From Sacculina carcini (lineage: Eukaryota; Arthropoda; Thecostraca; Sacculinidae), in contig OU696582.1 of the NCBI GenBank assembly GCA_916048095.2, positions 6,810,270 to 6,874,269 on the forward strand: DNA of 64,000 nucleotides. Reading direction: 5' to 3'. Each line of letters starts with the position of its first letter. Within the stretch, counting starts at the first letter, position 1. The position numbers and the translations under genes are program-made. The notes under the pieces are model-generated. The model searched no databases. It saw nothing but the letters and a program-made list of their open reading frames with translations, and had not been told where the DNA came from. This document shows positions 42,665 to 64,000 of the stretch, one piece after another.

Positions 42665-43508
42665 ATGTGTGTGTGTCTCTCTCTGTGTATATGTGTGTGT
42701 TTATGTGTGTGTGTTTCAGTTTGTTTGACATGGGTGCCGAGTATTATTGCTATGCCTCCGATATCACGTGCTCTTTTCCGGCCAACGGTCGGTTCAATGA
42801 CCGCCAGCGTGTCATCTACAACACGGTGCTGGCCGCCAGCCGCGCCGTAATTGCCGCCATCAAACCAGGCACGCACACGCTAAATATATCTCCCTACTCT
42901 TTGTTGTTGTAACCAGTGCTTCTTAACATGTTGGTTCTCAATTTGTTTTACAACTTGATTCCTTCATTAGGAAAATGAATTTACATATCTCTCATCGCAC
43001 GTTGTTTAAGAGGATCAAGTAAACAGTTTTTTCTTCATCAGGTAATATACAAAGCACAGTTGAAAACACAGTCCGTAACAACCCTCTTCATCCCCTCCCC
43101 CTAGCCGATGTTGGCAGCCTCCTCATCCCCACTGAACACTGAACCTACCCCCAGTGTTTGTGCGCGCGTAGGATTAAGGGCCTCTTTGCACCACCCCGGT
43201 CGCATCCCTCACGAACCACTGCACGTCAACTGTGCTTACTTACACAATTCGATGCAACGTCGAAGTCTCTGTCTGTGTGTGTGTTTGTGTGTGTGTTTGT
43301 GTGTGTGTGTTGGATCGCCTTGGAAACCTTCTAGGTGTAGGGCGCTATATAAATTGTTACATAATGTAATGTAATGTTTGTGTGTGTGTGTGTGTTTGGT
43401 GCGACAGGTGTGTCCTGGGTGGACATGCATCTGTTGGCCAACCGTGTCATGCTGCAAGGTCTCAAAGACGCTGGCATTCTGAAAGGAAGCCTGGACGACA
43501 TGATGCAG
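31095..43508 (+). CDS. PEPD: Xaa-Pro dipeptidase (prolidase), first 10 coding exons
   Basis: Exons: 31095-31117, 31541-31733, 34675-34866, 35455-35502, 36845-36906, 37298-37342, 39701-39851, 41422-41540, 42720-42868, 43408-43508. They total 1083 bp (361 codons) in one frame. It is a cytosolic metallopeptidase (pita-bread fold, M24B) that splits dipeptides with C-terminal proline. The N-terminal domain ([20 protein letters not shown]) and the catalytic start ([13 protein letters not shown] [16 protein letters not shown]) are clear. The first two metal-binding Asp are in LFDMGAEYY and [11 protein letters not shown]. Coding stops at DDMMQ followed by a donor. The exons for the remaining ligands (one His, two Glu) and about 130 residues are absent, and the next 20 kb are retroelement and viral repeat. 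The intron after exon 9 starts with GC (AG|GCACGC). The gene is either very long or interrupted. Confidence 0.95.
31465..31512 (+). mobile_element. LINE/SINE 3' tail fragment
   Basis: GGGCGCTATATAAACATCTACTT-type end directly followed by a GT tract and the PEPD exon 2 acceptor at 31540. Confidence 0.55.
31745..31825. repeat. (CA)n microsatellite after PEPD exon 2
   Basis: CACACA blocks separated by two TTGCGCACG spacers, starting about 12 bp after the exon 2 donor. Confidence 0.9.
32060..32290. mobile_element. hAT-type MITE, copy 2 (opposite orientation)
   Basis: Ends CACTGACGAATCCAG and CTGGATCCGCCGCTG, with flanking 8-mers CTTACACA/CTCACACA (7 of 8). The interior matches 2687-2964 in reverse, including CTCCTCATAACTAAG. 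In PEPD intron 2. Confidence 0.8.
32300..32350 (-). mobile_element. LINE/SINE 3' tail fragment, diverged
   Basis: TTTCATTTCATTTATTG followed by ACATTTATATTGCGCAATCTC resembles the GGGCGCTATATAAAT tail in reverse. It directly follows the MITE at 32060-32290. Confidence 0.4.
32625..32770. repeat. Dispersed repeat family C, copy 1
   Basis: Shares CCATTAAGC, CATCAAGCCCAT, AGGTTTTTAGTAGTACG, TCCAATAAGC and CCGGTAGTATTTT with 35940-36070 in the same orientation and order. Confidence 0.65.
33351..33964. mobile_element. hAT-type MITE carrying an internal minisatellite
   Basis: Termini CAGTGGTTCTTAACC and GGTTGAGAACCACTG, the classical hAT end, are flanked by 8-mers GTACAGAA/GTATAGAA (7 of 8). About ten copies of a 34-bp unit containing CTTAACCGAGCCTGGTTCCTAA fill 33385-33730. 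The unit resembles the terminal repeat itself. No coding capacity. In PEPD intron 2. Confidence 0.88.
34925..35293. mobile_element. Possible pogo/Tigger-like MITE
   Basis: ATCGTACAACCTCTATTTT near 34922 and an inverted, diverged TAGGTTTTACGGTATG near 35281 bracket repeats of AGAACGGCAC and CTCTAATT(A/G)AACG. The ends resemble Tigger-type termini, but pairing is imperfect and no TA duplication is clear. In PEPD intron 3. Confidence 0.35.
35564..35913. mobile_element. hAT-like MITE (CAGTGGTTCTCAACC), diverged right end
   Basis: Left end CAGTGGTTCTCAACCTT, and internal TTCTCGCACTCACTGGATT shared with the element at 38923-39320. Flanking 8-mers GCTTAGAC/GCGTAGAC match at 7 of 8, which places the right end. 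Starts about 60 bp after PEPD exon 4. Confidence 0.6.
35940..36397. mobile_element. MITE-like element of family C
   Basis: GGCCATTAAGCCC at about 35946 and GGGCTAAATGGCC at about 36377 are inverted ends. The first 130 bp match 32625-32770. No coding capacity. In PEPD intron 4. Confidence 0.5.
36541..36730. repeat. (GT)n microsatellites
   Basis: Three TG runs (36541-36590, 36669-36690, 36711-36728) in PEPD intron 4. Confidence 0.9.
37455..38570 (-). mobile_element. CR1/jockey-like non-LTR retrotransposon, 5'-truncated
   Basis: The minus strand encodes the C-terminal half of a reverse transcriptase: [19 protein letters not shown], catalytic FADD (near 38310), then [17 protein letters not shown] and the terminal [13 protein letters not shown] block. 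One in-frame TAA at about 38225 breaks the reading frame. The 3' end carries two copies of a 13-bp ACAACTAGTAAGA unit as a tail (about 37455-37480). It is antisense in PEPD intron 6, 110 bp past exon 6. Confidence 0.88.
38923..39320. mobile_element. hAT-type MITE
   Basis: Left end CAGTGGTTCTTAATTTTTT, right end GGTTAGGAACCCCTG, flanked by ATATAAGG/ATATAGGG (7 of 8). In PEPD intron 6. Confidence 0.75.
39385..39441 (+). mobile_element. LINE/SINE 3' tail fragment
   Basis: GGGGCGCTATGTAAATATCC followed by TTTCATGTAATGTG. It runs straight into the (GT)n tract that contains the repeated splice sites. Confidence 0.6.
39467..39711 (+). repeat. Tandem array of the PEPD exon 7 acceptor (8 copies)
   Basis: The block GTCAG|TCGTGTGATCA occurs eight times, with exon-start bases at about 39469, 39521, 39546, 39581, 39612, 39643, 39668 and 39701. 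The copies are separated by (TG)n with or without CACA. The last one is the conserved exon start, since it alone continues into AAATCGGCG (Lys-Ser-Ala). Splicing at the seventh copy would add 33 nt, in frame and without a stop. Confidence 0.95.
41341..41418. repeat. (GT)n abutting the PEPD exon 8 acceptor
   Basis: A perfect run of about 37 TG units directly followed by TCAG and the exon at 41422. There is no separate polypyrimidine tract. Confidence 0.97.
41608..41781 (+). mobile_element. tRNA-Val-derived SINE, internally deleted (copy 4)
   Basis: Head GCGTGGTGTAGTGGTTAGCAC and B box GGTTCGAATCCC, the early body (GGCGAATTCTATAATCC), then a jump to the tail CCCGTGTAGCAGCTGTCAC. About 150 bp of body is missing. 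In PEPD intron 8. Confidence 0.85.
42597..42720. repeat. (TA)n/(TG)n compound microsatellite before PEPD exon 9
   Basis: TATATA run (about 42603-42643) followed by TG runs up to the TTTCAG acceptor at 42714-42719. Confidence 0.95.
42914..43221. mobile_element. hAT-like MITE (CAGTGCTTCTTAAC)
   Basis: CAGTGCTTCTTAACATG on the left and CACGAACCACTG on the right. TTTAAGAGGATCAAGTAAACAG resembles part of the 35564-35913 element. No clean target duplication. In PEPD intron 9. Confidence 0.5.
43314..43378 (+). mobile_element. LINE/SINE 3' tail fragment
   Basis: TAGGGCGCTATATAAATTG followed by three TAATG units, then (TG)n up to the PEPD exon 10 acceptor at 43407. Confidence 0.65.
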
Positions 43509-43774
43509 GTACCAAAATCTATCAGTGTGCGTAATTGGGCAAGCCACTTGTGTCTCGCACTTGGGAAAATGAAAACAACAGTTTTCCTTCGAGAAGCAGT
43601 GAAATTCCTAACAGTTTCAGCCATGCATTCAATTCAGTGCAAGGACAATGCAATTAATCAATCTATCAATCTAATCACCACAAGATACTGATGGATTACT
43701 ATGACTATTGGTGTTTTAAACATGCACGGCAAATCGTTGAGACTATATATCACTCTACCTGCGGTGAGCACATC

Positions 43775-43905: not shown

Positions 43906-44006
43906 TACGACTTATCATCTAACTAATCAAACTTGAACAATTCATTGTCTCGTTTTTATCGTGTTACACTTCCGTATCCGTTGTGTGTGTGTGTGTCCGT
44001 CTGTTT

Positions 44007-46252
44007 TTTTTAATGACAAATTTTATTATATAGCAAACAAACATACATAAACATGAACATGAACAATCATTATAAACAAACAGCAGCAGCATTGCCGCGT
44101 ACCACCGCCAGGCTCACACGCTGTCGCAGCCAGGCGGTCTCCCGTGCCTCTCCAGATCGTTTCCTCATCCGACGACCGAGCGCAGTCGGCAACTCGCTGA
44201 AGGCGACCCCAACAACTCCCGTCGTTTCTACAGCGAGAGGGACGAATTCGTAATGACGGCTGAGAGCGGCGTATTTTCTGCGTTTGCGCTCCTCGGCCGC
44301 TTGAGCGGCAGCCCCCGGACTCAAAGCACACTCAACCAGATGTGAGAACAGCCGAAAAACCACGTCTTCCAAGGCGCGGTGGCGTGGCAAACGACCAGGA
44401 TCACGGTGACAAGACAGGCTGTGGTGTCCAAATGTGTCCGTCGTGACGCCGCACCGGCACCTGTGCGGTTGCTGTACGGGCGCTCCCAGTCGGAGCGCCA
44501 CGCCGATCCTAACGGCATCGTCAGGCAGCAACAAACCCAGGCTAGCCACCGGCAACGCGTACAACCAGGTACCGCATATGCTAGCAATCTAGAATATGCT
44601 AGCCCCGCATGGGCTAGCAATCTCGCAACACGCCACACAAACACACTTCAAACACTTCAAAACACCGCACTCAGAACAATCACAGGATGCACAGCTACCA
44701 CACCAGCAGACCACCTTCATCACGAAACCAAAATACTCAAACTGACCCACCACCTAGACATGAGAGGCACACAAACACTCGCAGCAGCAGTCACCAACAC
44801 AGCACATCCACTACATCACCTCACAACACAAGACAACACAGACAGAAACATAAAAACAACACCAAGCACACTTTACCACAGACAAATTTTCACATCACTT
44901 CCACCAGCTCCCCCACGCACATCAATCAAGAAACACATACACACAGAGATCGCACGGAAAGCCATACACTCACTACAACACAATACACTCCTACAAAGAC
45001 ACCCACCGCACATACACAAATCAGAAAACACACTCACAAGGGAATACAAGGTGCATCTGGCCAGGTTGAGATGCGGTCATCATCCTGCCCTTCTGTCATA
45101 TCAGAAAAGGTTGAATGACTCAATCGATGACACCTGTCCAGATTGCAATTCAGCACCACACACCATCACACACATCATGCAACACTGCACAGCACACACA
45201 CACAACTCAGACGCCAACACAAAATAAATTCAGTCAGAGACCTGTGGAACAACCCGGTCGGTGCCGTGTCTTTCCTCAGGAGCTCGAGGTTGCTCGGCCA
45301 GACAACCTGAGGAACAACAACAACAACCAGGCACCGCTGTGCGGGGCGGCGGCAGCGAGAAGTCTGGCACGGTCCACCTGGTTCGACTGGGACAGCAAGC
45401 GCTGATATCGACAGGTGGATGCTAGCTCGTCTAGGCGACGCTGGTTGAGTGGCACATCGATGCTTAATTCGGGACACCGGTGTTCTCTAAAGGTGCTGAT
45501 GGCGGACACCAGGAAAGCTGGTCTGTCGCTGCTGTCACAGCTGTTGATAAGACTTACCAGCCTTCTGGTGGCCTCCAGGGAGGATATGTGTGCAGGAAGA
45601 GACACATCCACGAGACGCCGCGCACCGATGCCCCCCAGGCGCACGGGTAGTGACGCCTGGATCCAACTCGCTTCACTTAGCTGCACGTTGCAACTGCGGG
45701 ATATTGCGGCACGTAACAAATCATCGATTTGTGTTAAATCATCTTTCGCCGAGTAGACGGGTGCAGCTCTCAACAAGTAAGTGGCCCGTGGCACAGACGC
45801 ATACCGAGCCAGAAAAAACAGTGCCGCATGACTGCCAATATCAGCTGTTCTGTCAATGAGCAGTTGCGTCGTTGTCTTGATGGTTGCAAGGGCTTCGCTG
45901 ATGCCGCCATCCTGAATGGGCGCACCGAGCAGCGTCATAAGTGGCAGCGGGATTGACTTGGCGGCGCGGAGCAGATTTACCGTCTCAGTATATGCGGTAC
46001 TTGCAGGGTCAGAGTCCACACTGCCCTTTTCGTTGCGATGATAAAACTCCTCGCCTTCAACGAGGTGCTGGTTGGTGGTAGATGGTGCCAGGCAGATGCG
46101 TTCGCACTTTGTCTGATTAAGCTCTAATCCGATCATTCGGAGAGCCGGTATGGGACGCGCTACGTCGGCAGCGACAACATCTGCTGGTCCCCCGAGTGTT
46201 GCGTCATCTAGGTACCACAAGTTGAGTGGTGCCTCCACCATCCTTGCCACAG
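44007..46252 (-). mobile_element. Non-LTR retrotransposon 3' half (YLDD reverse transcriptase), truncated
   Basis: Minus-strand frame from about 46250 to 45320 shows the end of a reverse transcriptase palm with YLDDATLGG (about 46195-46218), then KTTTQLLI, LPVRLGGIGARR and PHSGAWL. After an insertion (44576-45323) it resumes with LYALPVASLG, RCRCGV and HHSLSCHRDPGRLPRHRAL, and ends with FVPLAVETTGVVG and VSLAVVRGNAA. In this family a nuclease-like segment normally stands between the RHRAL and AEERKRRKYA blocks. Here they are nearly adjacent, so that part is deleted. AATAAA and an oligo-A stretch (44007-44014 as T on +) close the 3' end. The 5' part is replaced by viral sequence at 46253. Confidence 0.85.
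44576..45323 (+). mobile_element. Jockey-like retrotransposon 3' end nested in the RT element
   Basis: The plus-strand frame ending at 45227 has the polymerase C-terminal block LEYASPAWASN, LQTLQNTALRTITG, KVHLARLRCGHHP and a CPDC-x8-H-x3-H knuckle. A 3' UTR follows and ends in (AAC)n. It is flanked by a 14-bp target duplication CAACCAGGYACCGC at 44562-44575 and 45324-45337 (one mismatch). It splits the host frame between AWL and YALP, so it is younger than the host element. Confidence 0.93.
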
Positions 46253-47536
46253 GGTCATCGTCATTGATTGCTGACGAATATATGGAAAGACGCTTTTTGC
46301 AATGTTGCGTTCAGTCGAAGTTTGGTACAGCCTGATCTCCTGCGTTAGCTTACAGAAACATCTCGCGTTATCTATTTTGCCCTCCTTCTCCTTCATGATC
46401 GCTATCATGATCCGCCACTCATAAGGCACTCGTCCGTCTTCAATGCAACCAATCACTTCTTTCACCGACATGTTCTGTTCGCAAAGGTATTTGCTCAAGA
46501 CACGGCTTTCTCTACCCTTGCGCAGAGGAGCCCTGACACCGTAGATTGCGAAATGGGCAAGCCGGTCGAAATTTGTCACACAATCATCTCGGCCAGTACA
46601 TATGGCCTTATCGGTCAGTAACTCTGCCATGTCAGCAGTATAATCATAAGTCAAGTTTTGCTCCAAGATTACATACTCAAAATCCGCCGATGACCAGGCC
46701 CCCAGACCTGTTTCGAGCCACTTGTTCGTTCTCACTGACCGCTCGATGTCGGACCGTACACCAGGGATCAACACACACCGAGGCCACCGATTGTGACGGG
46801 AAAAGAAGGCGCGGCAGAAGACCTTTCTGAACATGTTCCTTGTGTCGAGGGCAGCTCGTTCATCAACATCAGGTGCCTCAGTCATGCGGAGGCGAAGGTC
46901 GGCGGCGGTGCTGAGGGAGTTGACAACTGGAAATCCAAAGGACTTCCAGAGCCCGCTCACCTCCAGCCGCAATTTCGCCTCGACATCTGTACTCACAGGT
47001 GCCATCATGTATCTAAACATATGGGTGTTGGTGATCCACTTCTCAACCCGCCGCATCTGACTGCTGAAAGTTAGCTTCATAACCTTTTCATGGTTCTCGA
47101 GTACGATTCCGATAGCGAACGAGGGAATCATCTTCCAAACGTGGGCGAACCTGTTAGCATGCATGATGAGATCACGCCGACCGGCTTCTAGGAACCTCAC
47201 GACTTCGGGGTACAGTTGATGAGTGCCGTACTTGTGGTACACATCCGCGATGCGGCTGTACAACAATGAGCCCTCGTGACTTTCCACCATTGACAAAACA
47301 CTGAGCCACATTGAGTATGTACCTAGGATCTTACGGGTGTGTGCACCTGTCTTCATCAACGAGACGACTACAACATCGCCGTAAAACTCGGCTTGTATCT
47401 TTAGATCTGACACTTTCCGATATGCCCCGACTCGCGCGCCAACTCGTCGATAAACGGTCGAGAACCACCGCTTCCAGCTGTTCCATCGTTCTATCTCGTC
47501 TGTCATCATCAAGCAGCCGATGCTGGACCGATCCAC
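46253..47536 (-). pseudogene. Viral L (RdRp) fragment, unit 0, truncated before motif A
   Basis: The frame opens at the shared DRSSIG block (47536) and runs through ESHEGSLLYSRIAD and the premotif KEKEGKIDNARC. It breaks off at SMTMT, where the host retrotransposon sequence begins. Catalytic motifs A to C are absent. The flanking sequence shows this is the edge of the array. Confidence 0.9.
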
Positions 47537-47546
47537 CTACCACTTT

Positions 47547-50500
47547 GTCGACATGAAATGTCGACAGTCGTCTTCTCTGAACACATAGTCAAGAGGAGCT
47601 TGGCCAGATTTGAGTCATCGCCGACGATCCACGACAACATGTCTGTGATTTGTTTTAACGATGACACCATCGACGTGCTGTCGATGATGGCGAGGTTAGA
47701 ACGTCGTGTACGCATGGCGGTCAATGATCCGATATACGGTTTGTGAGGTCCTCTGGTGCACAGTTTCTCTGCAGAGTTGGCGACAGTAATCAAGATCGAC
47801 CTACTCGGGTCAATTGACTCCGAGTCCCACCGGCCGAGACAACATTGATCGATAGTACAAGGCATGGTTATCCCTTCCATTACACGACCCCACGATGTCT
47901 CTCGAAGGGCGTGAGCAATGGTGTAGGAGCAACTAGAGGTAGGTGACAACAGCAGAGCTTCAATGCTCTGAGGGTTACTGTGGCTGAGTCGTGTCCTCAT
48001 GTATGTCATGAGTCCGTCATCCATCGTGGCAACCATTTGACGGAAGTCGGTCTCAGACACCTCTGCTCCTTCACTCCGCTCGATCGTTTGGCGTACAGTA
48101 CGTGAAGTACTGTACTGACCCACCACCTTATCACTGATTGCCACGTTAGACAGTTTAAAGAGGTGGGCCGCCACTCTTGGGTTGAACGGAGTGATGGAGA
48201 GAAGGTCACTGGTGAGCTCTTGGCGTTGGTGAGTCGACTGAATGGAGAATAGTCCTTTGATGTCTGGATTTTGGACGATGAGTGCAAGATCGTCTTTGAC
48301 GCGACGCCGAATCACGTTCTCCGCAGTATGCGGAACATTGAGGTTTAACGCATAAGGGTTTAGCAGTAACAATTCAAGGTCTCGTCTCGGTGAGGGTGTC
48401 AAGTCTATGAGTCTCGATATCGATGAAAACAGCTCTCTGTCCGTCAGGGAGACAAAGGTTAACCACGAGACGGTGTCAGTCAGCGCATCCGTCTTGCCCC
48501 TGTAGCGGAAGTCACTCAGGAGCATGATCGGGAGCCCCCCGACACACGCTGGTACTGACATCAGTGCGCAGACGTCGCTTTCAGACCACGAACTGCAAAA
48601 CTCATCGAACAATACATCAGCACACTCGATAAGTGTAAGCAAGTAGGCCGGATTCGGGAAATAATCCACACCAGCAACTGTTGCGCCGGATGAAAACAGT
48701 GAAGATATGCGGTTAGAAAAAGTACGAATTCCGTCATTGCTCTCGGAATTCACGCGAGAGGCCCGCTTTAACGCTGAGCTGACGGCGGCGCCCCTGAAAT
48801 GGTAGGCTTTGCTGTATTCAAACAGCACCGTCGACAGTCAGGTCTCGTCGGGCTTCAGCGTCATTCCGAGAAGCGCCGAACGGTTCGACAGACTCAACAC
48901 AAAGGCCGTGACAAAGTCCGACGCTGACTGGCCCAGGCGATCTAACACATGTGGCGCAGGAATTTCGATTACGATAACCTGGTTATCGCCCTGGCCCAGC
49001 AGCGTCGCTGTAGTACCTCGCTCCTCCGCGACGGCCAAGATGGTACACTGTGTGTGGAGAGTCCACCCCTTCTGCCGCATACCTTCCATCCACCGGGTAG
49101 GGGCTCTCCACACAACAGGACCATCTTCTGGCTCGTCTCCTCGAAACAATGGTGGCCTGAATCGATCCTGGAAGACGACCTTACAAAGGTAAGGAAAGAG
49201 CTGTGAAAACGCGAACACGCGGCGCAGTCCGAAAAGAGAGTCGAGCTCTGATAATATCGCTGCACATGAATCATGCGACATCGACAAGCACCACCTCGAA
49301 TAGTCCAGGCTGACGAACCCATATTTAGGCTCGTCAGCTCCGAAGGGTGCTGTCATTGTGCAGAGCGTGTCAAGTAAGACCTTCTCGGTCATCGTCATTG
49401 ATTGCTGACGAATATATGGAAAGACGCTTTTTGCAATGTTGCGTTCAGTCGAAGTTTGGTACAGCCTGATCTCCTGCGTTAGCTTACAGAAACATCTCGC
49501 GTTATCTATTTTGCCCTCCTTCTCCTTCATGATCGCTATCATGATCCGCCACTCATAAGGCACTCGTCCGTCTTCAATGCAACCAATCACTTCTTTCACC
49601 GACATGTTCTGTTCGCAAAGGTATTTGCTCAAGACACGGCTTTCTCTACCCTTGCGCAGAGGAGCCCTGACACCGTAGATTGCGAAATGGGCAAGCCGGT
49701 CGAAATTTGTCACACAATCATCTCGGCCAGTACATATGGCCTTATCGGTCAGTAACTCTGCCATGTCAGCATTATAATCATAAGTCAAGTTTTGCTCCGA
49801 TTACATACTCAAAATCCGCCGATGACCAGGCCCCCAGACCTGTTTCGAGCCACTTGTTCGTTATCACTGACCGCTCGATGTCGGACCGTACACCAGGGAT
49901 CAACACACACCGAGGCCACCGATTGTGACGGGAAAAGAAGGCGCGGCAGAAGACCTTTCTGAACATGTTCCTTGTGTCGAGGGCAGCTCGTTCATCAACA
50001 TCAGGTGCCTCAGTCATGCGGAGGCGAAGATCGGCGGCGGTGCTGAGGGAGTTGACAACTGGAAATCCAAAGGACTTCCAGAGCCCGCTCACCTCCAGCC
50101 GCAATTTCGCCTCGACATCTGTACTCACAGGTGCCATCATGTATCTAAACATATGGGTGTTGGTGATCCACTTCTCAACCCGCCGCATCTGACTGCTGAA
50201 AGTTAGCTTCATAACCTTTTCATGGTTCTCGAGTACGATTCCGATAGCGAACGAGGGAACCATCTTCCAAACGTGGGCGAACCTGTTAGCATGCATGATG
50301 AGATCACGCCGACCGGCTTCTAGGAACCTCACGACTTCGGGGTACAGTTGATGAGTGCCGTACTTGTGGTACACATCCGCGATGCGGCTGTACAACAATG
50401 AGCCCTCGTGACTTTCCACCATTGACAAAACACTGAGCCACATTGAGTATGTACCTAGGATCTTACGGGTGTGTGCACCTGTCTTCATCAACGAGACGAC

Positions 50501-50678
50501 TACAACATCGCCGTAAAACTCGGCTTGTATCTTTAGACCTGACACTTTCCGATATGCCCCGACTCGCGCGCCAACTCGTCGATAAACGGTCGAGAACCAC
50601 CGCTTCCAGCTGTTCCATCGTTCTATCTCGTCTGTCATCATCAAGCAGCCGATGCTGGACCGATCCACCTACCACTTT
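47547..50678 (-). pseudogene. Viral L (RdRp) copy, unit 1
   Basis: Broken in three places. A 2-bp deletion at about 49798 shifts the frame after FEYVI. A TGA at 48838-48840 interrupts the frame just after the LKPDET block. A short-type junction at 47547-47567 ends the unit. Between the lesions the premotif, motif A (SLDYSRW), motif B (MEGMRQKGWTL) and motif C (QGDNQ) remain readable. One residue differs from unit 5 (CAAIL against CAAIF). Confidence 0.9.
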
Positions 50679-53600
50679 GCGAGTCACTTTCGTTAGGTCT
50701 GAAATGTCGACAGTCGTCTTCTCTGAACACATAGTCAAGAGGAGCTTGGCCAGATTTGAGTCATCGTCGGCGATGTCTGTGACAACATGTCTGTGATTTG
50801 TTTTAACGATGACACCATCGACGTGCTGTCGATGATGGCGAGGTTAGAACGTCGTGTACGCATGGCGGTCAATGATCCGACATACGGTTTGTGAGGTCCT
50901 CTGGTGCACAGTTTCTCTGCAGAGTTGGCGACAGTAATCAAGATCGACCTACTCGGGTCAATTGACTCCGAGTCCCACCGGCCGAGACAACATTGATCGA
51001 TAGTACAAGGCATGGTTATCCCTTCCATTACACGACCCCACGATGTCTCTCGAAGGGCGTGAGCAATGGTGTAGGAGCAACTAGAGGTAGGTGACAACAG
51101 CAGAGCTTCAATGCTCTGAGGGTTACTGTGGCTGAGTCGTGTCCTCATGTATGTCATGAGTCCGTCATCCATCGTGGCAACCATTTGACGGAAGTCGGTC
51201 TCAGACACCTCTGCTCCTTCACTCTGCTCGATCGTTTGGCGTACAGTACGTGAAGTACTGTACTGACCCACCACCTTATCACTGAGTGCCACGTTAGACA
51301 GTTTAAAGAGGTGGGCCGCCACTCTTGGGTTGAACGGAGTGATGGAGAGAAGGTCACTGGTGAGCTCTTGGCGTTGGTGAGTCGACTGAATGGAGAATAG
51401 TCCTTTGATGTCTGGATTTTGGACGATGAGTGCAAGATCGTCTTTGACGCGACGCCGAATCACGTTCTCCGCAGTATGCGGAACATTGAGGTTTAACGCA
51501 TAAGGGTTTAGCAGTAACAATTCAAGGTCTCGTCTCGGTGAGGGTGTCAAGTCTATGAGTCTCGATATCGATGAAAACAGCTCTCTGTCCGTCAGGGAGA
51601 CAAAGGTTAACCACGAGACGGTGTCAGTCAGCGCATCCGTCTTGCCCCTGTAGCGGAAGTCACTCAGGAGCATGATCGGGAGCCCCCCGACACACGCTGG
51701 TACTGACATCAGTGCGCAGACGTCGCTTTCAGACCACGAACTGCAAAACTCATCGAACAATACATCAGCACACTCGATAAGTGTAAGCAAGTAGGCCGGA
51801 TTCGGGAAATAATCCACACCAGCAACTGTTGCGCCGGATGAAAACAGTGAAGATATGCGGTTAGAAAAAGTACGAATTCCGTCATTGCTCTCGGAATTCA
51901 CGCGAGAGGCCCGCTTTAACGCTGAGCTGACGGCGGCGCCCCTGAAATGGTAGGCTTTGCTGTATTCAAACAGCACCGTCGACAGCCAGGTCTCGTCGGG
52001 CTTCAGCGTCATTCCGAGAAGCGCCGAACGGTTCGACAGACTCAACACAAAGGCCGTGACAAAGTCCGACGCTGACTGGCCCAGGCGATCTAACACATGT
52101 GGCGCAGGAATTTCGATGACGATAACCTGGTTATCGCCCTGGCCCAGCAGCGTCGCTGTAGTACCTCGCTCCTCCGCGACGGCCAAGATGGTACACTGTG
52201 TGTGGAGAGTCCACCCCTTCTGCCGCATACCTTCCATCCACCGGGTAGGGGCTCTCCACACAACAGGACCATCTTCTGGCTCGTCTCCTCGAAACAATGG
52301 TGGCCTGAATCGATCCTGGAAGACGACCTTACAAAGGTAAGGAAAGAGTTGTGAAAACGCGAACACGCGGCGCAGTCCGAAAAGAGAGTCGAGCTCTGAG
52401 AATATCGCTGCACATGAATCATGCGACATCGACAAGCACCACCTCGAATAGTCCAGGCTGACGAACCCATATTTAGGCTCGTCAGCTCCGAAGGGTGCTG
52501 TCATCGTGCAGAGCGTGTCAAGTAAGACCTTCTCGGTCATCGTCATTGATTGCTGACGAATATATGGAAAGACGCTTTTTGCAATGTTGCGTTCAGTCGA
52601 AGTTTGGTACAGCCTGATCTCCTGCGTTAGCTTACATAAACATCTCGCGTTATCTATTTTGCCCTCCTTCTCCTTCATGATCGCTATCATGATCCGCCAC
52701 TCATAAGGCACTCGTCCGTCTTCAATGCAACCAATCACTTCTTTCACCGACATGTTCTGTTCGCAAAGGTATTTGCTCAAGACACGGCTTTCTCTACCCT
52801 TGCGCAGAGGAGCCCTGACACCGTAGATTGCGAAATGGGCAAGCCGGTCGAAATTTGTCACACAATCATCTCGGCCAGTACATATGGCCTTATCGGTCAG
52901 TAACTCTGCCATGTCAGCAGTATAATCATAAGTCAAGTTTTGCTCCAAGATTACATACTCAAAATCCGCCGATGACCAGGCCCCCAGACCTGTTTCGAGC
53001 CACTTGTTCGTTCTCACTGACCGCTCGATGTCGGACCGTACACCAGGGATCAACACACACCGAGGCCACCGATTGTGACGGGAAAAGAAGGCGCGGCAGA
53101 AGACCTTTCTGAACATGTTCCTTGTGTCGAGGGCAGCTCGTTCATCAACATCAGGTGCCTCAGTCATGCGGAGGCGAAGGTCGGCGGCGGTGCTGAGGGA
53201 GTTGACAACTGGAAATCCAAAGGACTTCCAGAGCCCGCTCACCTCCAGCCGCAATTTCGCCTCGACATCTGTACTCACAGGTGCCATCATGTATCTAAAC
53301 ATATGGGTGTTGGTGATCCACTTCTCAACCCGCCGCATCTGACTGCTGAAAGTTAGCTTCATAACCTTTTCATGGTTCTCGAGTACGATTCCGATAGCGA
53401 ACGAGGGAATCATCTTCCAAACGTGGGCGAACCTGTTAGCATGCATGATGAGATCACGCCGACCGGCTTCTAGGAACCTCACGACTTCGGGGTACAGTTG
53501 ATGAGTGCCGTACTTGTGGTACACATCCGCGATGCGGCTGTACAACAATGAGCCCTCGTGACTTTCCACCATTGACAAAACACTGAGCCACATTGAGTAT

Positions 53601-53828
53601 GTACCTAGGATCTTACGGGTGTGTGCACCTGTCTTCATCAACGAGACGACTACAACATCGCCGTAAAACTCGGCTTGTATCTTTAGATCTGACACTTTCC
53701 GATATGCCCCGACTCGCGCGCCAACTCGTCGATAAACGGTCGAGAACCACCGCTTCCAGCTGTTCCATCGTTCTATCTCGTCTGTCATCATCAAGCAGCC
53801 GATGCTGGACCGATCCACCTACCACTTT
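50679..53828 (-). pseudogene. Viral L (RdRp) copy, unit 2, longest open frame (1027 codons)
   Basis: The best preserved unit: one frame from 53818 to 50735. The N-terminal region includes ESHEGSLLYSRIAD (about 85-98). A basic premotif KEKEGKIDNARC lies at about 382-393, as in mononegavirus L proteins (KEREMK type), with a second conserved block ERNIAKSVFPYI. Motif A has Asp in SLDYSRW (about 454-460), motif B is MEGMRQKGWTL (about 528-538) and motif C is QGDNQ (about 560-564). The GDNQ signature belongs to Monjiviricetes L polymerases. An L protein has about 2,000 or more residues, so capping and methyltransferase regions are absent. The frame ends early in a short rearranged stretch (about 50764-50787). 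Chuvirus-like or other mononegavirus-like origin is undecided. Confidence 0.92.
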
Positions 53829-56800
53829 GCGAGTCACTTTCGTTAGGTCTGAAATGTCGACAGTCGTCTTCTCTGAACACATAGTCAAGAGGAGCTTGGC
53901 CAGATTTGAGTCATCGCCGACGATCCACGACAACATGTCTGTGATTTGTTTTAACGATGACACCATCGACGTGCTGTCGATGATGGCGAGGTTAGAACGT
54001 CGTGTACGCATGGCGGTCAATGATCCGATATACGGTTTGTGATGTCCTCTGGTGCACAGTTTCTCTGCAGAGTTGGCGACAGTAATCAAGATCGACCTAC
54101 TCGGGTCAATTGACTCCGAGTCCCACCGGCCGAGACAACATTGATCGATAGTACAAGGCATGGTTATCCCTTCCATTACACGACCCCACGATGTCTCTCG
54201 AAGGGCGTGAGCAATGGTGTAGGAGCAACTAGAGGTAGGTGACAACAGCAGAGCTTCAATGCTCTGAGGGTTACTGTGGCTGAGTCGTGTCCTCATGTAT
54301 GTCATGAGTCCGTCATCCATCGTGGCAACCATTTGACGGAAGTCGGTCTCAGACACCTCTGCTCCTTCACTCCGCTCGATCGTTTGGCGTACAGTACGTG
54401 AAGTACTGTACTGACCCACCACCTTATCACTGATTGCCACGTTAGACAGTTTAAAGAGGTGGGCCGCCACTCTTGGGTTGAACGGAGTGATGGAGAGAAG
54501 GTCACTGGTGAGCTCTTGGCGTTGGTGAGTCGACTGAATGGAGAATAGTCCTTTGATGTCTGGATTTTGAACGATGAGTGCAAGATCGTCTTTGACGCGA
54601 CGCCGAATCACGTTCTCCGCAGTATGCGGAACATTGAGGTTTAACGCATAAGGGTTTAGCAGTAACAATTCAAGGTCTCGTCTCGGTGAGGGTGTCAAGT
54701 CTATGAGTCTCGATATCGATGAAAACAGCTCTCTGTCCGTCAGGGAGACAAAGGTTAACCACGAGACGGTGTCAGTCAGCGCATCCGTCTTGCCCCTGTA
54801 GCGGAAGTCACTCAGGAGCATGATCGGGAGCCCCCCGACACACGCTGGTACTGACATCAGTGCGCAGACGTCGCTTTCAGACCACGAACTGCAAAACTCA
54901 TCGAACAATACATCAGCACACTCGATAAGTGTAAGCAAGTAGGCCGGATTCGGGAAATAATCCACACCAGCAACTGTTGCGCCGGATGAAAACAGTGAAG
55001 ATATGCGGTTAGAAAAAGTACGAATTCCGTCATTGCTCTCGGAATTCACGCGAGAGGCCCGCTTTAACGCTGAGCTGACGGCGGCGCCCCTGAAATGGTA
55101 GGCTTTGCTGTATTCAAACAGCACCGTCGACAGTCAGGTCTCGTCGGGCTTCAGCGTCATTCCGAGAAGCGCCGAACGGTTCGACAGACTCAACACAAAG
55201 GCCGTGACAAAGTCCGACGCTGACTGGCCCAGGCGATCTAACACATGTGGCGCAGGAATTTCGATTACGATAACCTGGTTATCGCCCTGGCCCAGCAGCG
55301 TCGCTGTAGTACCTCGCTCCTCCGCGACGGCCAAGATGGTACACTGTGTGTGGAGAGTCCACCCCTTCTGCCGCATACCTTCCATCCACCGGGTAGGGGC
55401 TCTCCACACAACAGGACCATCTTCTGGCTCGTCTCCTCGAAACAATGGTGGCCTGAATCGATCCTGGAAGACGACCTTACAAAGGTAAGGAAAGAGCTGT
55501 GAAAACGCGAACACGCGGCGCAGTCCGAAAAGAGAGTCGAGCTCTGAGAATATCGCTGCACATGAATCATGCGACATCGACAAGCACCACCTCGAATAGT
55601 CCAGGCTGACGAACCCATATTTAGGCTCGTCAGCTCCGAAGGGTGCTGTCATCGTGCAGAGCGTGTCAAGTAAGACCTTCTCGGTCATCGTCATTGATTG
55701 CTGACGAATATATGGAAAGACGCTTTTTGCAATGTTGCGTTCAGTCGAAGTTTGGTACAGCCTGATCTCCTGCGTTAGCTTACAGAAACATCTCGCGTTA
55801 TCTATTTTGCCCTCCTTCTCCTTCATGATCGCTATCATGATCCGCCACTCATAAGGCACTCGTCCGTCTTCAATGCAACCAATCACTTCTTTCACCGACA
55901 TGTTCTGTTCGCAAAGGTATTTGCTCAAGACACGGCTTTCTCTACCCTTGCGCAGAGGAGCCCTGACACCGTAGATTGCGAAATGGGCAAGCCGGTCGAA
56001 ATTTGTCACACAATCATCTCGGCCAGTACATATGGCCTTATCGGTCAGTAACTCTGCCATGTCAGCATTATAATCATAAGTCAAGTTTTGCTCCAAGATT
56101 ACATACTCAAAATCCGCCGATGACCAGGCCCCCAGACCTGTTTCGAGCCACTTGTTCGTTATCACTGACCGCTCGATGTCGGACCGTACACCAGGGATCA
56201 ACACACACCGAGGCCACCGATTGTGACGGGAAAAGAAGGCGCGGCAGAAGACCTTTCTGAACATGTTCCTTGTGTCGAGGGCAGCTCGTTCATCAACATC
56301 AGGTGCCTCAGTCATGCGGAGGCGAAGGTCGGCGGCGGTGCTGAGGGAGTTGACAACTGGAAATCCAAAGGACTTCCAGAGCCCGCTCACCTCCAGCCGC
56401 AATTTCGCCTCGACATCTGTACTCACAGGTGCCATCATGTATCTAAACATATGGGTGTTGGTGATCCACTTCTCAACCCGCCGCATCTGACTGCTGAAAG
56501 TTAGCTTCATAACCTTTTCATGGTTCTCGAGTACGATTCCGATAGCGAACGAGGGAATCATCTTCCAAACGTGGGCGAACCTGTTAGCATGCATGATGAG
56601 ATCACGCCGACCGGCTTCTAGGAACCTCACGACTTCGGGGTACAGTTGATGAGTGCCGTACTTGTGGTACACATCCGCGATGCGGCTGTACAACAATGAG
56701 CCCTCGTGACTTTCCACCATTGACAAAACACTGAGCCACATTGAGTATGTACCTAGGATCTTACGGGTGTGTGCACCTGTCTTCATCAACGAGACGACTA

Positions 56801-56976
56801 CAACATCGCCGTAAAACTCGGCTTGTATCTTTAGACCTGACACTTTCCGATATGCCCCGACTCGCGCGCCAACTCGTCGATAAACGGTCGAGAACCACCG
56901 CTTCCAGCTGTTCCATCGTTCTATCTCGTCTGTCATCATCAAGCAGCCGATGCTGGACCGATCCACCTACCACTTT
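53829..56976 (-). pseudogene. Viral L (RdRp) copy, unit 3
   Basis: Open from 56966 to the shared TGA at 55134-55136 (610 codons, including premotif and motifs A to C). After the stop it is open to the unit end and on across the junction into unit 2 in a different frame. Odd-unit markers: TGA, Asn in DYNAD, Ile in NVAISD. Confidence 0.9.
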
Positions 56977-59900
56977 GCGAGTCACTTTCGTTAGGTCTGA
57001 AATGTCGACAGTCGTCTTCTCTGAACACATAGTCAAGAGGAGCTTGGCCAGATTTGAGTCATCGCCGACGATCCACGACAACATGTCTGTGATTTGTTTT
57101 AACGATGACACCATCGACGTGCTGTCGATGATGGCGAGGTTAGAACGTCGTGTACGCATGGCGGTCAATGATCCGACATACGGTTTGTGAGGTCCTCTGG
57201 TGCACAGTTTCTCTGCAGAGTTGGCGACAGTAATCAAGATCGACCTACTCGGGTCAATTGACTCCGAGTCCCACCGGCCGAGACAACATTGATCGATAGT
57301 ACAAGGCATGGTTATCCCTTCCATTACACGACCCCACGATGTCTCTCGAAGGGCGTGAGCAATGGTGTAGGAGCAACTAGAGGTAGGTGACAACAGCAGA
57401 GCTTCAATGCTCTGAGGGTTACTGTGGCTGAGTCGTGTCCTCATGTATGTCATGAGTCCGTCATCCATCGTGGCAACCATTTGACGGAAGTCGGTCTCAG
57501 ACACCTCTGCTCCTTCACTCCGCTCGATCGTTTGGCGTACAGTACGTGAAGTACTGTACTGACCCACCACCTTATCACTGAGTGCCACGTTAGACAGTTT
57601 AAAGAGGTGGGCCGCCACTCTTGGGTTGAACGGAGTGATGGAGAGAAGGTCACTGGTGAGCTCTTGGCGTTGGTGAGTCGACTGAATGGAGAATAGTCCT
57701 TTGATGTCTGGATTTTGGACGATGAGTGTAAGATCGTCTTTGACGCGACGCCGAATCACGTTCTCCGCAGTATGCGGAACATTGAGGTTTAACGCATAAG
57801 GGTTTAGCAGTAACAATTCAAGGTCTCGTCTCGGTGAGGGTGTCAAGTCTATGAGTCTCGATATCGATGAAAACAGCTCTCTGTCCGTCAGGGAGACAAA
57901 GGTTAACCACGAGACGGTGTCAGTCAGCGCATCCGTCTTGCCCCTGTAGCGGAAGTCACTCAGGAGCATGATCGGGAGCCCCCCGACACACGCTGGTACT
58001 GACATCAGTGCGCAGACGTCGCTTTCAGACCACGAACTGCAAAACTCATCGAACAATACATCAGCACACTCGATAAGTGTAAGCAAGTAGGCCGGATTCG
58101 GGAAATAATCCACACCAGCAACTGTTGCGCCGGATGAAAACAGTGAAGATATGCGGTTAGAAAAAGTACGAATTCCGTCATTGCTCTCGGAATTCACGCG
58201 AGAGGCCCGCTTTAACGCTGACCTGACGGCGACGCCCCTGAAATGGTAGCCTTTGCTGTATTCAAACAGCACCGTCGACAGCCAGGTCTCGTCGGGCTTC
58301 AGCGTCATTCCGAGAAGCGCCGAACGGTTCGACAGACTCAACACAAAGGCCGTGACAAAGTCCGACGCTGACTGGCCCAGGCGATCTAACACATGTGGCG
58401 CAGGAATTTCGATGACGATAACCTGGTTATCGCCCTGGCCCAGCAGCGTCGCTGTAGTACCTCGCTCCTCCGCGACGGCCAAGATGGTACACGATGGTAC
58501 ATGGTACGGTACAAGATGGTGTGGAGAGTCCACCCCTTCTGCCGCATACCTTCCATCCACCGGGTAGGGGCTCTCCACACAACAGGACCATCTTCTGGCT
58601 CGTCTCCTCGAAACAATGGTGGCCTGAATCGATCCTGGAAGACGACCTTACAAAGGTAAGGAAAGAGCTGTGAAAACGCGAACACGCGGCGCAGTCCGAA
58701 AAGAGAGTCGAGCTCTGAGAATATCGCTGCACATGAATCATGCGACATCGACAAGCACCACCTCGAATAGTCCAGGCTGACGAACCCATATTTAGGCTCG
58801 TCAGCTCCGAAGGGTGCTGTCATCGTGCAGAGCGTGTCAAGTAAGACCTTCTCGGTCATCGTCATTGATTGCTGACGAATATATGGAAAGACGCTTTTTG
58901 CAATGTTGCGTTCAGTCGAAGTTTGGTACAGCCTGATCTCCTGCGTTAGCTTACAGAAACATCTCGCGTTATCTATTTTGCCCTCCTTCTCCTTCATGAT
59001 CGCTATCATGATCCGCCACTCATAAGGCACTCGTCCGTCTTCAATGCAACCAATCACTTCTTTCACCGACATGTTCTGTTCGCAAAGGTATTTGCTCAAG
59101 ACACGGCTTTCTCTACCCTTGCGCAGAGGAGCCCTGACACCGTAGATTGCGAAATGGGCAAGCCGGTCGAAATTTGTCACACAATCATCTCGGCCAGTAC
59201 ATATGGCCTTATCGGTCAGTAACTCTGCCATGTCAGCAGTATAATCATAAGTCAAGTTTTGCTCCAAGATTACATACTCAAAATCCGCCGATGACCAGGC
59301 CCCCAGACCTGTTTCGAGCCACTTGTTCGTTCTCACTGACCGCTCGATGTCGGACCGTACACCAGGGATCAACACACACCGAGGCCACCGATTGTGACGG
59401 GAAAAGAAGGCGCGGCAGAAGACCTTTCTGAACATGTTCCTTGTGTCGAGGGCAGCTCGTTCATCAACATCAGGTGCCTCAGTCATGCGGAGGCGAAGGT
59501 CGGCGGCGGTGCTGAGGGAGTTGACAACTGGAAATCCAAAGGACTTCCAGAGCCCGCTCACCTCCAGCCGCAATTTCGCCTCGACATCTGTACTCACAGG
59601 TGCCATCATGTATCTAAACATATGGGTGTTGGTGATCCACTTCTCAACCCGCCGCATCTGACTGCTGAAAGTTAGCTTCATAACCTTTTCATGGTTCTCG
59701 AGTACGATTCCGATAGCGAACGAGGGAATCATCTTCCAAACGTGGGCGAACCTGTTAGCATGCATGATGAGATCACGCCGACCGGCTTCTAGGAACCTCA
59801 CGACTTCGGGGTACAGTTGATGAGTGCCGTACTTGTGGTACACATCCGCGATGCGGCTGTACAACAATGAGCCCTCGTGACTTTCCACCATTGACAAAAC

Positions 59901-60147
59901 ACTGAGCCACATTGAGTATGTACCTAGGATCTTACGGGTGTGTGCACCTGTCTTCATCAACGAGACGACTACAACATCGCCGTAAAACTCGGCTTGTATC
60001 TTTAGATCTGACACTTTCCGATATGCCCCGACTCGCGCGCCAACTCGTCGATAAACGGTCGAGAACCACCGCTTCCAGCTGTTCCATCGTTCTATCTCGT
60101 CTGTCATCATCAAGCAGCCGATGCTGGACCGATCCACCTACCACTTT
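56977..60147 (-). pseudogene. Viral L (RdRp) copy, unit 4, with extra insertion
   Basis: Open from 60137 past motif B. A roughly 23-bp net insertion at about 58490-58518, made of GATGGTACA/TGGTACGGTACA words, shifts the frame between motifs B and C. Downstream it is open through GDNQ to the junction. It also has private changes near 58220-58250. Even-unit markers: Trp in place of the TGA, Thr in DYTAD, Leu in NVALSD. Confidence 0.9.
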
Positions 60148-63100
60148 GTCGACATGAAATGTCGACAGTCGTCTTCTCTGAACACATAGTCAAGAGGAGC
60201 TTGGCCAGATTTGAGTCATCGCCGACGATCCACGACAACATGTCTGTGATTTGTTTTAACGATGACACCATCGACGTGCTGTCGATGATGGCGAGGTTAG
60301 AACGTCGTGTACGCATGGCGGTCAATGATCCGATATACGGTTTGTGAGGTCCTCTGGTGCACAGTTTCTCTGCAGAGTTGGCGACAGTAATCAAGATCGA
60401 CCTACTCGGGTCAATTGACTCCGAGTCCCACCGGCCGAGACAACATTGATCGATAGTACAAGGCATGGTTATCCCTTCCATTACACGACCCCACGATGTC
60501 TCTCGAAGGGCGTGAGCAATGGTGTAGGAGCAACTAGAGGTAGGTGACAACAGCAGAGCTTCAATGCTCTGAGGGTTACTGTGGCTGAGTCGTGTCCTCA
60601 TGTATGTCATGAGTCCGTCATCCATCGTGGCAACCATTTGACGGAAGTCGGTCTCAGACACCTCTGCTCCTTCACTCCGCTCGATCGTTTGGCGTACAGT
60701 ACGTGAAGTACTGTACTGACCCACCACCTTATCACTGATTGCCACGTTAGACAGTTTAAAGAGGTGGGCCGCCACTCTTGGGTTGAACGGAGTGATGGAG
60801 AGAAGGTCACTGGTGAGCTCTTGGCGTTGGTGAGTCGACTGAATGGAGAATAGTCCTTTGATGTCTGGATTTTGGACGATGAGTGCAAGATCGTCTTTGA
60901 CGCGACGCCGAATCACGTTCTCCGCAGTATGCGGAACATTGAGGTTTAACGCATAAGGGTTTAGCAGTAACAATTCAAGGTCTCGTCTCGGTGAGGGTGT
61001 CAAGTCTATGAGTCTCGATATCGATGAAAACAGCTCTCTGTCCGTCAGGGAGACAAAGGTTAACCACGAGACGGTGTCAGTCAGCGCATCCGTCTTGCCC
61101 CTGTAGCGGAAGTCACTCAGGAGCATGATCGGGAGCCCCCCGACACACGCTGGTACTGACATCAGTGCGCAGACGTCGCTTTCAGACCACGAACTGCAAA
61201 ACTCATCGAACAATACATCAGCACACTCGATAAGTGTAAGCAAGTAGGCCGGATTCGGGAAATAATCCACACCAGCAACTGTTGCGCCGGATGAAAACAG
61301 TGAAGATATGCGGTTAGAAAAAGTACGAATTCCGTCATTGCTCTCGGAATTCACGCGAGAGGCCCGCTTTAACGCTGAGCTGACGGCGGCGCCCCTGAAA
61401 TGGTAGGCTTTGCTGTATTCAAACAGCACCGTCGACAGTCAGGTCTCGTCGGGCTTCAGCGTCATTCCGAGAAGCGCCGAACGGTTCGACAGACTCAACA
61501 CAAAGGCCGTGACAAAGTCCGACGCTGACTGGCCCAGGCGATCTAACACATGTGGCGCAGGAATTTCGATTACGATAACCTGGTTATCGCCCTGGCCCAG
61601 CAGCGTCGCTGTAGTACCTCGCTCCTCCGCGACGGCCAAGATGGTACACTGTGTGTGGAGAGTCCACCCCTTCTGCCGCATACCTTCCATCCACCGGGTA
61701 GGGGCTCTCCACACAACAGGACCATCTTCTGGCTCGTCTCCTCGAAACAATGGTGGCCTGAATCGATCCTGGAAGACGACCTTACAAAGGTAAGGAAAGA
61801 GCTGTGAAAACGCGAACACGCGGCGCAGTCCGAAAAGAGAGTCGAGCTCTGAGAATATCGCTGCACATGAATCATGCGACATCGACAAGCACCACCTCGA
61901 ATAGTCCAGGCTGACGAACCCATATTTAGGCTCGTCAGCTCCGAAGGGTGCTGTCATTGTGCAGAGCGTGTCAAGTAAGACCTTCTCGGTCATCGTCATT
62001 GATTGCTGACGAATATATGGAAAGACGCTTTTTGCAATGTTGCGTTCAGTCGAAGTTTGGTACAGCCTGATCTCCTGCGTTAGCTTACAGAAACATCTCG
62101 CGTTATCTATTTTGCCCTCCTTCTCCTTCATGATCGCTATCATGATCCGCCACTCATAAGGCACTCGTCCGTCTTCAATGCAACCAATCACTTCTTTCAC
62201 CGACATGTTCTGTTCGCAAAGGTATTTGCTCAAGACACGGCTTTCTCTACCCTTGCGCAGAGGAGCCCTGACACCGTAGATTGCGAAATGGGCAAGCCGG
62301 TCGAAATTTGTCACACAATCATCTCGGCCAGTACATATGGCCTTATCGGTCAGTAACTCTGCCATGTCAGCATTATAATCATAAGTCAAGTTTTGCTCCG
62401 ATTACATACTCAAAATCCGCCGATGACCAGGCCCCCAGACCTGTTTCGAGCCACTTGTTCGTTATCACTGACCGCTCGATGTCGGACCGTACACCAGGGA
62501 TCAACACACACCGAGGCCACCGATTGTGACGGGAAAAGAAGGCGCGGCAGAAGACCTTTCTGAACATGTTCCTTGTGTCGAGGGCAGCTCGTTCATCAAC
62601 ATCAGGTGCCTCAGTCATGCGGAGGCGAAGATCGGCGGCGGTGCTGAGGGAGTTGACAACTGGAAATCCAAAGGACTTCCAGAGCCCGCTCACCTCCAGC
62701 CGCAATTTCGCCTCGACATCTGTACTCACAGGTGCCATCATGTATCTAAACATATGGGTGTTGGTGATCCACTTCTCAACCCGCCGCATCTGACTGCTGA
62801 AAGTTAGCTTCATAACCTTTTCATGGTTCTCGAGTACGATTCCGATAGCGAACGAGGGAACCATCTTCCAAACGTGGGCGAACCTGTTAGCATGCATGAT
62901 GAGATCACGCCGACCGGCTTCTAGGAACCTCACGACTTCGGGGTACAGTTGATGAGTGCCGTACTTGTGGTACACATCCGCGATGCGGCTGTACAACAAT
63001 GAGCCCTCGTGACTTTCCACCATTGACAAAACACTGAGCCACATTGAGTATGTACCTAGGATCTTACGGGTGTGTGCACCTGTCTTCATCAACGAGACGA

Positions 63101-63279
63101 CTACAACATCGCCGTAAAACTCGGCTTGTATCTTTAGACCTGACACTTTCCGATATGCCCCGACTCGCGCGCCAACTCGTCGATAAACGGTCGAGAACCA
63201 CCGCTTCCAGCTGTTCCATCGTTCTATCTCGTCTGTCATCATCAAGCAGCCGATGCTGGACCGATCCACCTACCACTTT
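60148..63279 (-). pseudogene. Viral L (RdRp) copy, unit 5 (near-duplicate of unit 1)
   Basis: Carries the same 2-bp deletion (62399), the same TGA (61439-61441) and the same short junction (60148-60168) as unit 1, all displaced by 12,601 bp. Confidence 0.9.
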
Positions 63280-64000
63280 GCGAGTCACTTTCGTTAGGTC
63301 TGAAATGTCGACAGTCGTCTTCTCTGAACACATAGTCAAGAGGAGCTTGGCCAGATTTGAGTCATCGTCGGCGATGTCTGTGACAACATGTCTGTGATTT
63401 GTTTTAACGATGACACCATCGACGTGCTGTCGATGATGGCGAGGTTAGAACGTCGTGTACGCATGGCGGTCAATGATCCGACATACGGTTTGTGAGGTCC
63501 TCTGGTGCACAGTTTCTCTGCAGAGTTGGCGACAGTAATCAAGATCGACCTACTCGGGTCAATTGACTCCGAGTCCCACCGGCCGAGACAACATTGATCG
63601 ATAGTACAAGGCATGGTTATCCCTTCCATTACACGACCCCACGATGTCTCTCGAAGGGCGTGAGCAATGGTGTAGGAGCAACTAGAGGTAGGTGACAACA
63701 GCAGAGCTTCAATGCTCTGAGGGTTACTGTGGCTGAGTCGTGTCCTCATGTATGTCATGAGTCCGTCATCCATCGTGGCAACCATTTGACGGAAGTCGGT
63801 CTCAGACACCTCTGCTCCTTCACTCCGCTCGATCGTTTGGCGTACAGTACGTGAAGTACTGTACTGACCCACCACCTTATCACTGAGTGCCACGTTAGAC
63901 AGTTTAAAGAGGTGGGCCGCCACTCTTGGGTTGAACGGAGTGATGGAGAGAAGGTCACTGGTGAGCTCTTGGCGTTGGTGAGTCGACTGAATGGAGAATA
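63280..64000 (-). pseudogene. Viral L (RdRp) copy, unit 6, cut by window end
   Basis: The C-terminal part only. It shares the rearranged end with unit 2 (63365-63388 against 50764-50787), with a few substitutions such as Arg for Gln in the TIERSEG block. Confidence 0.88.

Follow-up and report, generated by a model that had tools for sequence, protein, structure and literature searches.

A tandem array of a bornavirus-like polymerase fragment in a prolidase intron of Sacculina carcini, probably founded by a LINE-driven insertion

Introduction

How does a piece of an RNA virus polymerase gene come to stand in many head-to-tail copies inside an animal gene? The question is raised by a 64,000-nucleotide stretch of the Sacculina carcini genome (contig OU696582.1, here C16:6810270-6874269; hereafter the window), the right-hand part of which is filled by repeats of about 3.15 kb that encode part of the L protein of a negative-strand RNA virus. 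The entry of RNA virus genes into animal genomes is mostly inferred from single, decayed copies. At this locus, both insertion ends appear to have been kept, together with a partner of the long interspersed nuclear element (LINE) type with its junction and a young array that records the aftermath. We consider the locus, on balance, to be a non-retroviral endogenous element of a bornavirus-like virus that was probably brought in by one LINE-driven insertion and amplified afterwards.

Results

The assembly searched comprised 264.4 Mb in 43 contigs, and coordinates are window positions unless prefixed. Comparison of the window with itself placed a sharp start of the array at exactly 46253, followed by five complete units (3134, 3148, 3148, 3171 and 3134 bp) and a partial sixth, of which 2013 bp fall inside the window (Table 1). 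When the next 100 kb of the chromosome were added, the array was found to end at window coordinate 113714, which gives about 20 units over about 67 kb in the assembly: 18 uninterrupted units, one interrupted by a LINE of 6354 bp, and a terminal piece of 1254 bp. The head-to-tail array is real and far beyond chance. A preliminary description of the window, made from its letters, had counted at least five complete units and two partial ones; the complete units stand, only one partial unit was found, and a second depends on the phase chosen.

On the minus strand, the frames of the units match PF00946 (Mononeg_RNA_pol) from about its position 190 to the end, and the first part of PF14318 (Mononeg_mRNAcap), so that a 1027-aa frame over one unit holds the L polymerase core and the start of the capping domain. 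Missing from the unit are the N-terminal end of L and, judged by other loci, about 740 residues on its C-terminal side. A PDB search ranked four L proteins of 1711-1756 aa highest (E 7.8e-80 to 5.5e-79), followed by 6UEB (rabies) at 1.3e-39. Among the four, 9H1G is the L protein of Borna disease virus 1; the other three we take, from their length, to be bornavirus L proteins as well. By these similarities the unit comes from the interior of a Mononegavirales L gene, with bornavirus closest among solved L proteins, and the endogenous fragment of a negative-strand virus L with an RNA-dependent RNA polymerase core that the preliminary description had proposed is borne out. A scan of IMG/VR with the L frame gave four pattern matches and no relative among them. 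A 1240-aa metagenome protein, P0001, joins an L part, 60% identical to the window frame, directly to an N-like part (44%); at L007:936-2810, one frame likewise holds L and then pieces of both L and N.

The 18 full units differ pairwise by 0 to 21 mismatches, on average by 10.7 per about 3130 bases (0.34%), which agrees with the homogeneous amplification first described, in an array larger than was noted then. Units 1-4 differ from units 5-8 by only 1, 1, 2 and 7 mismatches, and a 12.6-kb block of four units was duplicated, either in the genome or by assembly. When units at three or fewer mismatches were joined (counted by eye), 10 groups remained among the 18. The 50 bases around the tandem joint are identical in all 19 joints, shifted by two bases in six of them through an upstream 2-bp indel; the joint falls inside L on both sides, and at this same position the right-most copy departs from the others. 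Within the LINE insert, which is bounded by a short flanking repeat, the 1247-aa frame has endonuclease, reverse transcriptase and RNase H domains.

A stop or frame change relative to P0001 was found in 18 of the 19 joint-to-joint copies, in one of them owing to the LINE insert. Of 47 substitution variants among the units, 41 lie inside the frame (29 nonsynonymous, 10 synonymous and 2 stops), and these fit the neutral expectation of 70%, 26% and 4%. The array units no longer evolve as protein genes, and a functional protein family was rejected on the variant classes of the 18 copies and on the broken frames.

To the right of the array, the L frame continues past the joint into new, native L sequence, beyond which frames of 101, 175 and 402 aa follow on the same strand. 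These remaining viral genes accompany the right-most copy alone; the array segment, far from being isolated, belongs to a longer integration that also has N, P and X frames. The names N, P and X were assigned by position, P and X having no family match above cut-off. The 402-aa N frame matched PF06407 (BDV_P40) with E 1.1e-4 and 21.7 bits, under the cut-off of 26.3, and a divergent second N matched it with E 0.0078; P0001 carries PF06407 in its database annotation. PDB searches with N gave no match, and a protein search with N found none among 4283 candidates.

The order N-P-X-L is the same at all four loci that have the four genes (C16, two on C20, and C9). Their intergenic gaps are at most about 230 nt, as is the X-L gap at 5 of 5 loci, and therefore no glycoprotein gene fits between N and L; none was seen there at any of the four loci, no genome-wide search for one having been made. 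Bornaviridae, as far as the excerpted text of PMC5834213 goes, have the orders N-X-P-M-G-L or N-X-P-G-M-L, with a glycoprotein gene, and the order found here departs from both. A 12-nt motif was found six times in a search of 11 oriented loci (both strands), always before P or X: at 4 of 5 X starts and 2 of 4 P starts, at none of 3 N starts and at none of 9 L starts, where the true start is uncertain. It was first spotted by eye in the gaps of three of the loci later searched, which makes the test partly circular. The motif looks like a transcription signal, whose survival in the integrated copies would reflect a template RNA that exceeded a single mRNA in length. Two consecutive copies of a 13-bp sequence sit exactly at the viral end (L014:2569-2594).

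The whole block is flanked on both sides by exons of prolidase (Xaa-Pro dipeptidase), which places it within an intron some 74 kb long and in antisense orientation to the gene. On the left it ends with the 3' part of a LINE-like element, here called Y, whose poly(A) stands at the Y end and not at a viral gene end. A 22-bp repeat that is likely a target-site duplication has one copy just outside this poly(A) and the other immediately past the end of the viral sequence at L014:2594 (window coordinate 116594); its local alignment score of 19.5 was equalled by 1 of 228 TG-repeat control stretches. Y and virus lie on the same strand.

Y is known from other places as well. Its copy on C19 matches RVT_1 (E 5.9e-7) and PHD (E 2.9e-6), and Y proper was found at no fewer than four other places (two on C19, one on C10, and C16:8.88 Mb), a lower bound with 40 of 1159 candidates scored. 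Two of the four listed copies lie within 15 kb of L loci, for which random placement gives about 7e-5, with Y copies partly scored. On C10, Y adjoins another L array on the same strand and in the same order, with a flanking repeat equalled by 6 of 3835 controls.

Table 1. Features of the locus (window coordinates unless prefixed)
Feature	Position	Strand	Remarks
Array unit 1	46253..49386	-	3134 bp; tandem joint between 47506 and 47507; self-comparison
Array unit 2	49387..52534	-	3148 bp; self-comparison
Array unit 3	52535..55682	-	3148 bp; self-comparison
Array unit 4	55683..58853	-	3171 bp; self-comparison
Array unit 5	58854..61987	-	3134 bp; opens second copy of the four-unit block
Array unit 6	61988..64000	-	cut at window end; array continues beyond it
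L frame over one unit	50735..53818	-	1027 aa; PF00946 E 4.8e-101, PF14318 E 9.4e-11
LINE insert within one unit	L010:2278-8631		6354 bp; frames of 562 and 1247 aa
Prolidase exon, left	43410..43510	+	PDB sequence match E 5e-4, chain residues 321-351
Prolidase exons, right (in L014)	about 117233 and 118052		Peptidase_M24 E 5.1e-11; Xaa-Pro dipeptidase E 8e-8, residues 411-466
Likely target-site duplication, left copy	43982..44003		22 bp, TG-rich; one mismatch to right copy
Y poly(A)	44004..44011	-	eight A (T-run on + strand), behind AATAAA signal; read directly
LINE-like element Y, 3' part	44012..46252	-	cut off inside reverse transcriptase frame
Repeat nested in Y	44590..45327		738 bp; 97-99% identical at more than 30 listed places
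Y/L junction microhomology	46253..46256		four bases common to Y and L; compared with Y copies on C19 and C10

Beyond this locus, at least 54 diverged L matches on 18 contigs group into at least 27 further loci, a lower bound with 38 of 50 candidates scored. At 8 of the 27, a given L stretch occurs at least twice within 30 kb on one strand. In comparisons with the window frame, 21 of the 22 loci fetched show saturation of synonymous sites, with nonsynonymous differences of 8-28%. The ratio of nonsynonymous to synonymous divergence (dN/dS) was taken for pairs with at least 250 shared codons and a proportion of synonymous differences (pS) under 0.6. It is 0.06-0.08 in six L pairs, 0.08 between the window frame and L001, and 0.26 between L023 and L028; it rises to 0.77 within C10 and to 0.43, 0.68 and 1.24 among three copies on C35. 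Most measurable pairs thus diverged under strong purifying selection, and most L loci look like separate integrations of a replicating viral lineage, local copies having been made later in host DNA. The possibility that all of them are host duplicates of one dead insertion was rejected on the low dN/dS of most measurable pairs. The three C35 copies are related short L pieces 0.1-0.4 Mb apart (C35:3317522, 3579896 and 3686875; L026, L027 and L025), and from their dN/dS of 0.43-1.24 they are probably host-side copies of one integration.

Other genes of the lineage also recur. A P-fragment array on C15 (6162782-6170560, L036) has ten matches in 850-bp steps, neighbouring units being 99.8% alike. 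On C24 (6211239-6238091, L035), five N matches with 29-30% identity form a cluster in which the open frames are long and one N is followed by a P-like frame; the cluster represents either another, divergent lineage or a family of host genes.

The DNA on the left side of the array abounds in TG/CA repeats and holds two minisatellites, at 33390-33728 (34-bp units, 10 copies) and 19557-20110 (20-bp units, 28 copies). The window opens with a kinesin motor frame (1-1308; PF00225 E 1.5e-107), 39-51% identical to the best 120 of 4681 matches.

Discussion

From the order, ends, joints and divergence of the parts, which are read directly from the locus, we infer the template switches and their sequence in time. 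We favour one insertion because the poly(A) of Y stands on one side and the viral end on the other, the flanks match, Y and virus share the strand and four bases of microhomology, and Y recurs beside the L array on C10. In the germ line, the reverse transcriptase of Y would have primed at a TG-rich site in the prolidase intron, copied the 3' part of the Y RNA, switched within L onto a plus-sense viral RNA with N-P-X-L, and run on to the viral 5' end. The product, read on the minus strand, would be leader-N-P-X-L(part)-Y 3' end-poly(A), flanked by target-site duplications. A second inner copy of L would then have arisen beside the first, either by a jump back on the viral template in the same event or by a later DNA duplication. 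Such a jump would leave a partial copy by Y, then a longer copy, with one joint; the left edge may alternatively reflect a deletion there. The last step has good support: unequal exchange between the direct repeats would have expanded the segment to about 20 units, including the duplicated four-unit block. We place this expansion at the DNA level because one joint is shared by all 19 junctions between units, mean divergence is 0.34%, a four-unit block is duplicated, and the variant classes are neutral.

Several observations weigh against a single LINE-driven insertion. The left-most unit starts nearer to the N-terminus of L than does the C-terminal edge of the repeat. Because it starts inside that edge, either a second jump or a subsequent deletion is required to explain the Y/L junction; strand and microhomology fit a template switch, yet the junction does not fit the simplest model with one switch. 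On C10, up to about 780 bp between Y and the viral L are unassigned, and at C16:8.88 Mb Y and L lie about 12 kb apart. TG-rich flanks make target-site duplications easy to obtain by chance, and the prolidase exons on either side fix the place of the block and not the timing of each step.

The most serious competitor, to which we give a minor though real chance, is that Y and the virus are chance neighbours, an ordinary viral integration having come to lie beside an unrelated Y after a deletion and having later been duplicated in tandem at random, with no template switch. The position of the Y/L junction off the repeat's own edge would suit this, as would the local duplication of other DNA in this genome. 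In the fetched regions without the window array, nearby direct duplicates make up 26% of the bases of endogenous viral elements (EVEs) against 6% of other bases, and all of the duplicated EVE bases come from 2 of the 15 EVE-bearing regions. Neither a higher rate of duplication of EVEs than of other DNA nor a mechanism specific to them is established by these figures, and the 6% of duplicated non-viral bases also weighs against our preferred reading. Chance has more trouble with the matching bases that flank the block, on one side next to the poly(A) of Y and on the other next to the viral end, with the same strand and order here and on C10, and with the placement of two of the four other Y copies near L loci. 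An artefact of assembly, in which a few real units were multiplied by the assembler, is very improbable in our view: the near-identity of units 1-4 and 5-8 as a block is what it would produce, but it would account poorly for the 10 groups among the 18 units, for a LINE with its own flanking repeat inside one unit, and for the anchoring of both array ends in one gene.

Two further origins had been suggested in the preliminary description and did not hold up. For the integration of a circular or concatemeric viral cDNA, the head-to-tail order is the natural argument. We rate this lowest of all and reject it, however, since L sequence stands on either side of the shared joint, the right-most copy alone carries the other viral genes, and other loci have other periods (about 3.83 kb on C10, 2.05 kb on C20 and 850 bp of P on C15). 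Classical satellite DNA, like the array, has homogenised head-to-tail units; it also has very many copies, usually at several heterochromatic sites, whereas here about 20 units lie in one intron of one gene. No second copy of the array was listed in the genome search, which skips very common words and left the window array itself unlisted.

Any function of the array would lie at the RNA level, because prolidase transcription would read it antisense to the viral mRNA. A piRNA source had also been raised in the preliminary description. We hold it doubtful that host selection retains the intronic L copies as a source of antisense small RNAs (PIWI-interacting, piRNA, or small interfering, siRNA) against related viruses. 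The antisense orientation and the many entries of this virus lineage into the genome speak for it, as do EVEs of Aedes mosquitoes that make piRNAs, according to the section of PMC5497376 we drew on; the neutral variant classes carry no information on function as RNA, and EVE-specific duplication is not established. Equally speculative is a bolder combination, in which the LINE reverse transcriptase jumped repeatedly, from Y RNA to viral RNA and back, and so made the first tandem pair at integration, the array now serving as an antisense RNA source against a persistent, recurrently endogenized bornavirus-like lineage without a glycoprotein gene.

The same genome has at least 27 further L loci, from a related lineage in which no glycoprotein gene seems to separate N from L. 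A single species could serve to test template switching, recurrent infection and the tandem growth of EVEs.

Relation to known systems

In the literature searched, which mostly excludes subscription journals, we found no description of a polymerase fragment from a negative-strand virus arrayed in tandem, and nothing on invertebrate bornaviral arrays. Macrosatellites are large single-locus tandem repeats with kilobase units. The array resembles them in its kilobase units, head-to-tail order, homogenisation and duplicated block, and differs in that its unit is a fragment of an RNA virus polymerase.

Bornavirus-like EVEs, LINE-made EVEs and repeated EVEs are each already known from the portions consulted of PMC10288550, PMC5834213 and PMC8982415, the second of which places bornavirus-like elements in invertebrates too. 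EVEs in piRNA clusters of Aedes mosquitoes are also viral fragments beside transposons and possibly antisense (PMC5497376, in part); here we have the tandem expansion of one fragment. In the shrimp Penaeus monodon, an element of infectious hypodermal and haematopoietic necrosis virus (IHHNV) has at least six repeat blocks in the host genome, which, in the passages seen of PMC8982415, derive from a DNA parvovirus and form a jumbled element, about 9 kb long, that is built of inverted 661-bp units; ours derives from an RNA virus, with direct 3.15-kb units and one joint over 67 kb. Also close are the endogenous bornavirus-like elements of vertebrates (EBLN, EBLL and EBLN/X/P), germ-line N and L sequences that, in the extracts of PMC10288550 at hand, bear the marks of LINE-1-type integration, poly(A) and target-site duplications. 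Those are described there as copies of viral transcripts, single or N/X/P, whereas here N, P, X and L stand together in one block, which is joined to the 3' end of a LINE-like element and includes an L segment repeated in tandem.

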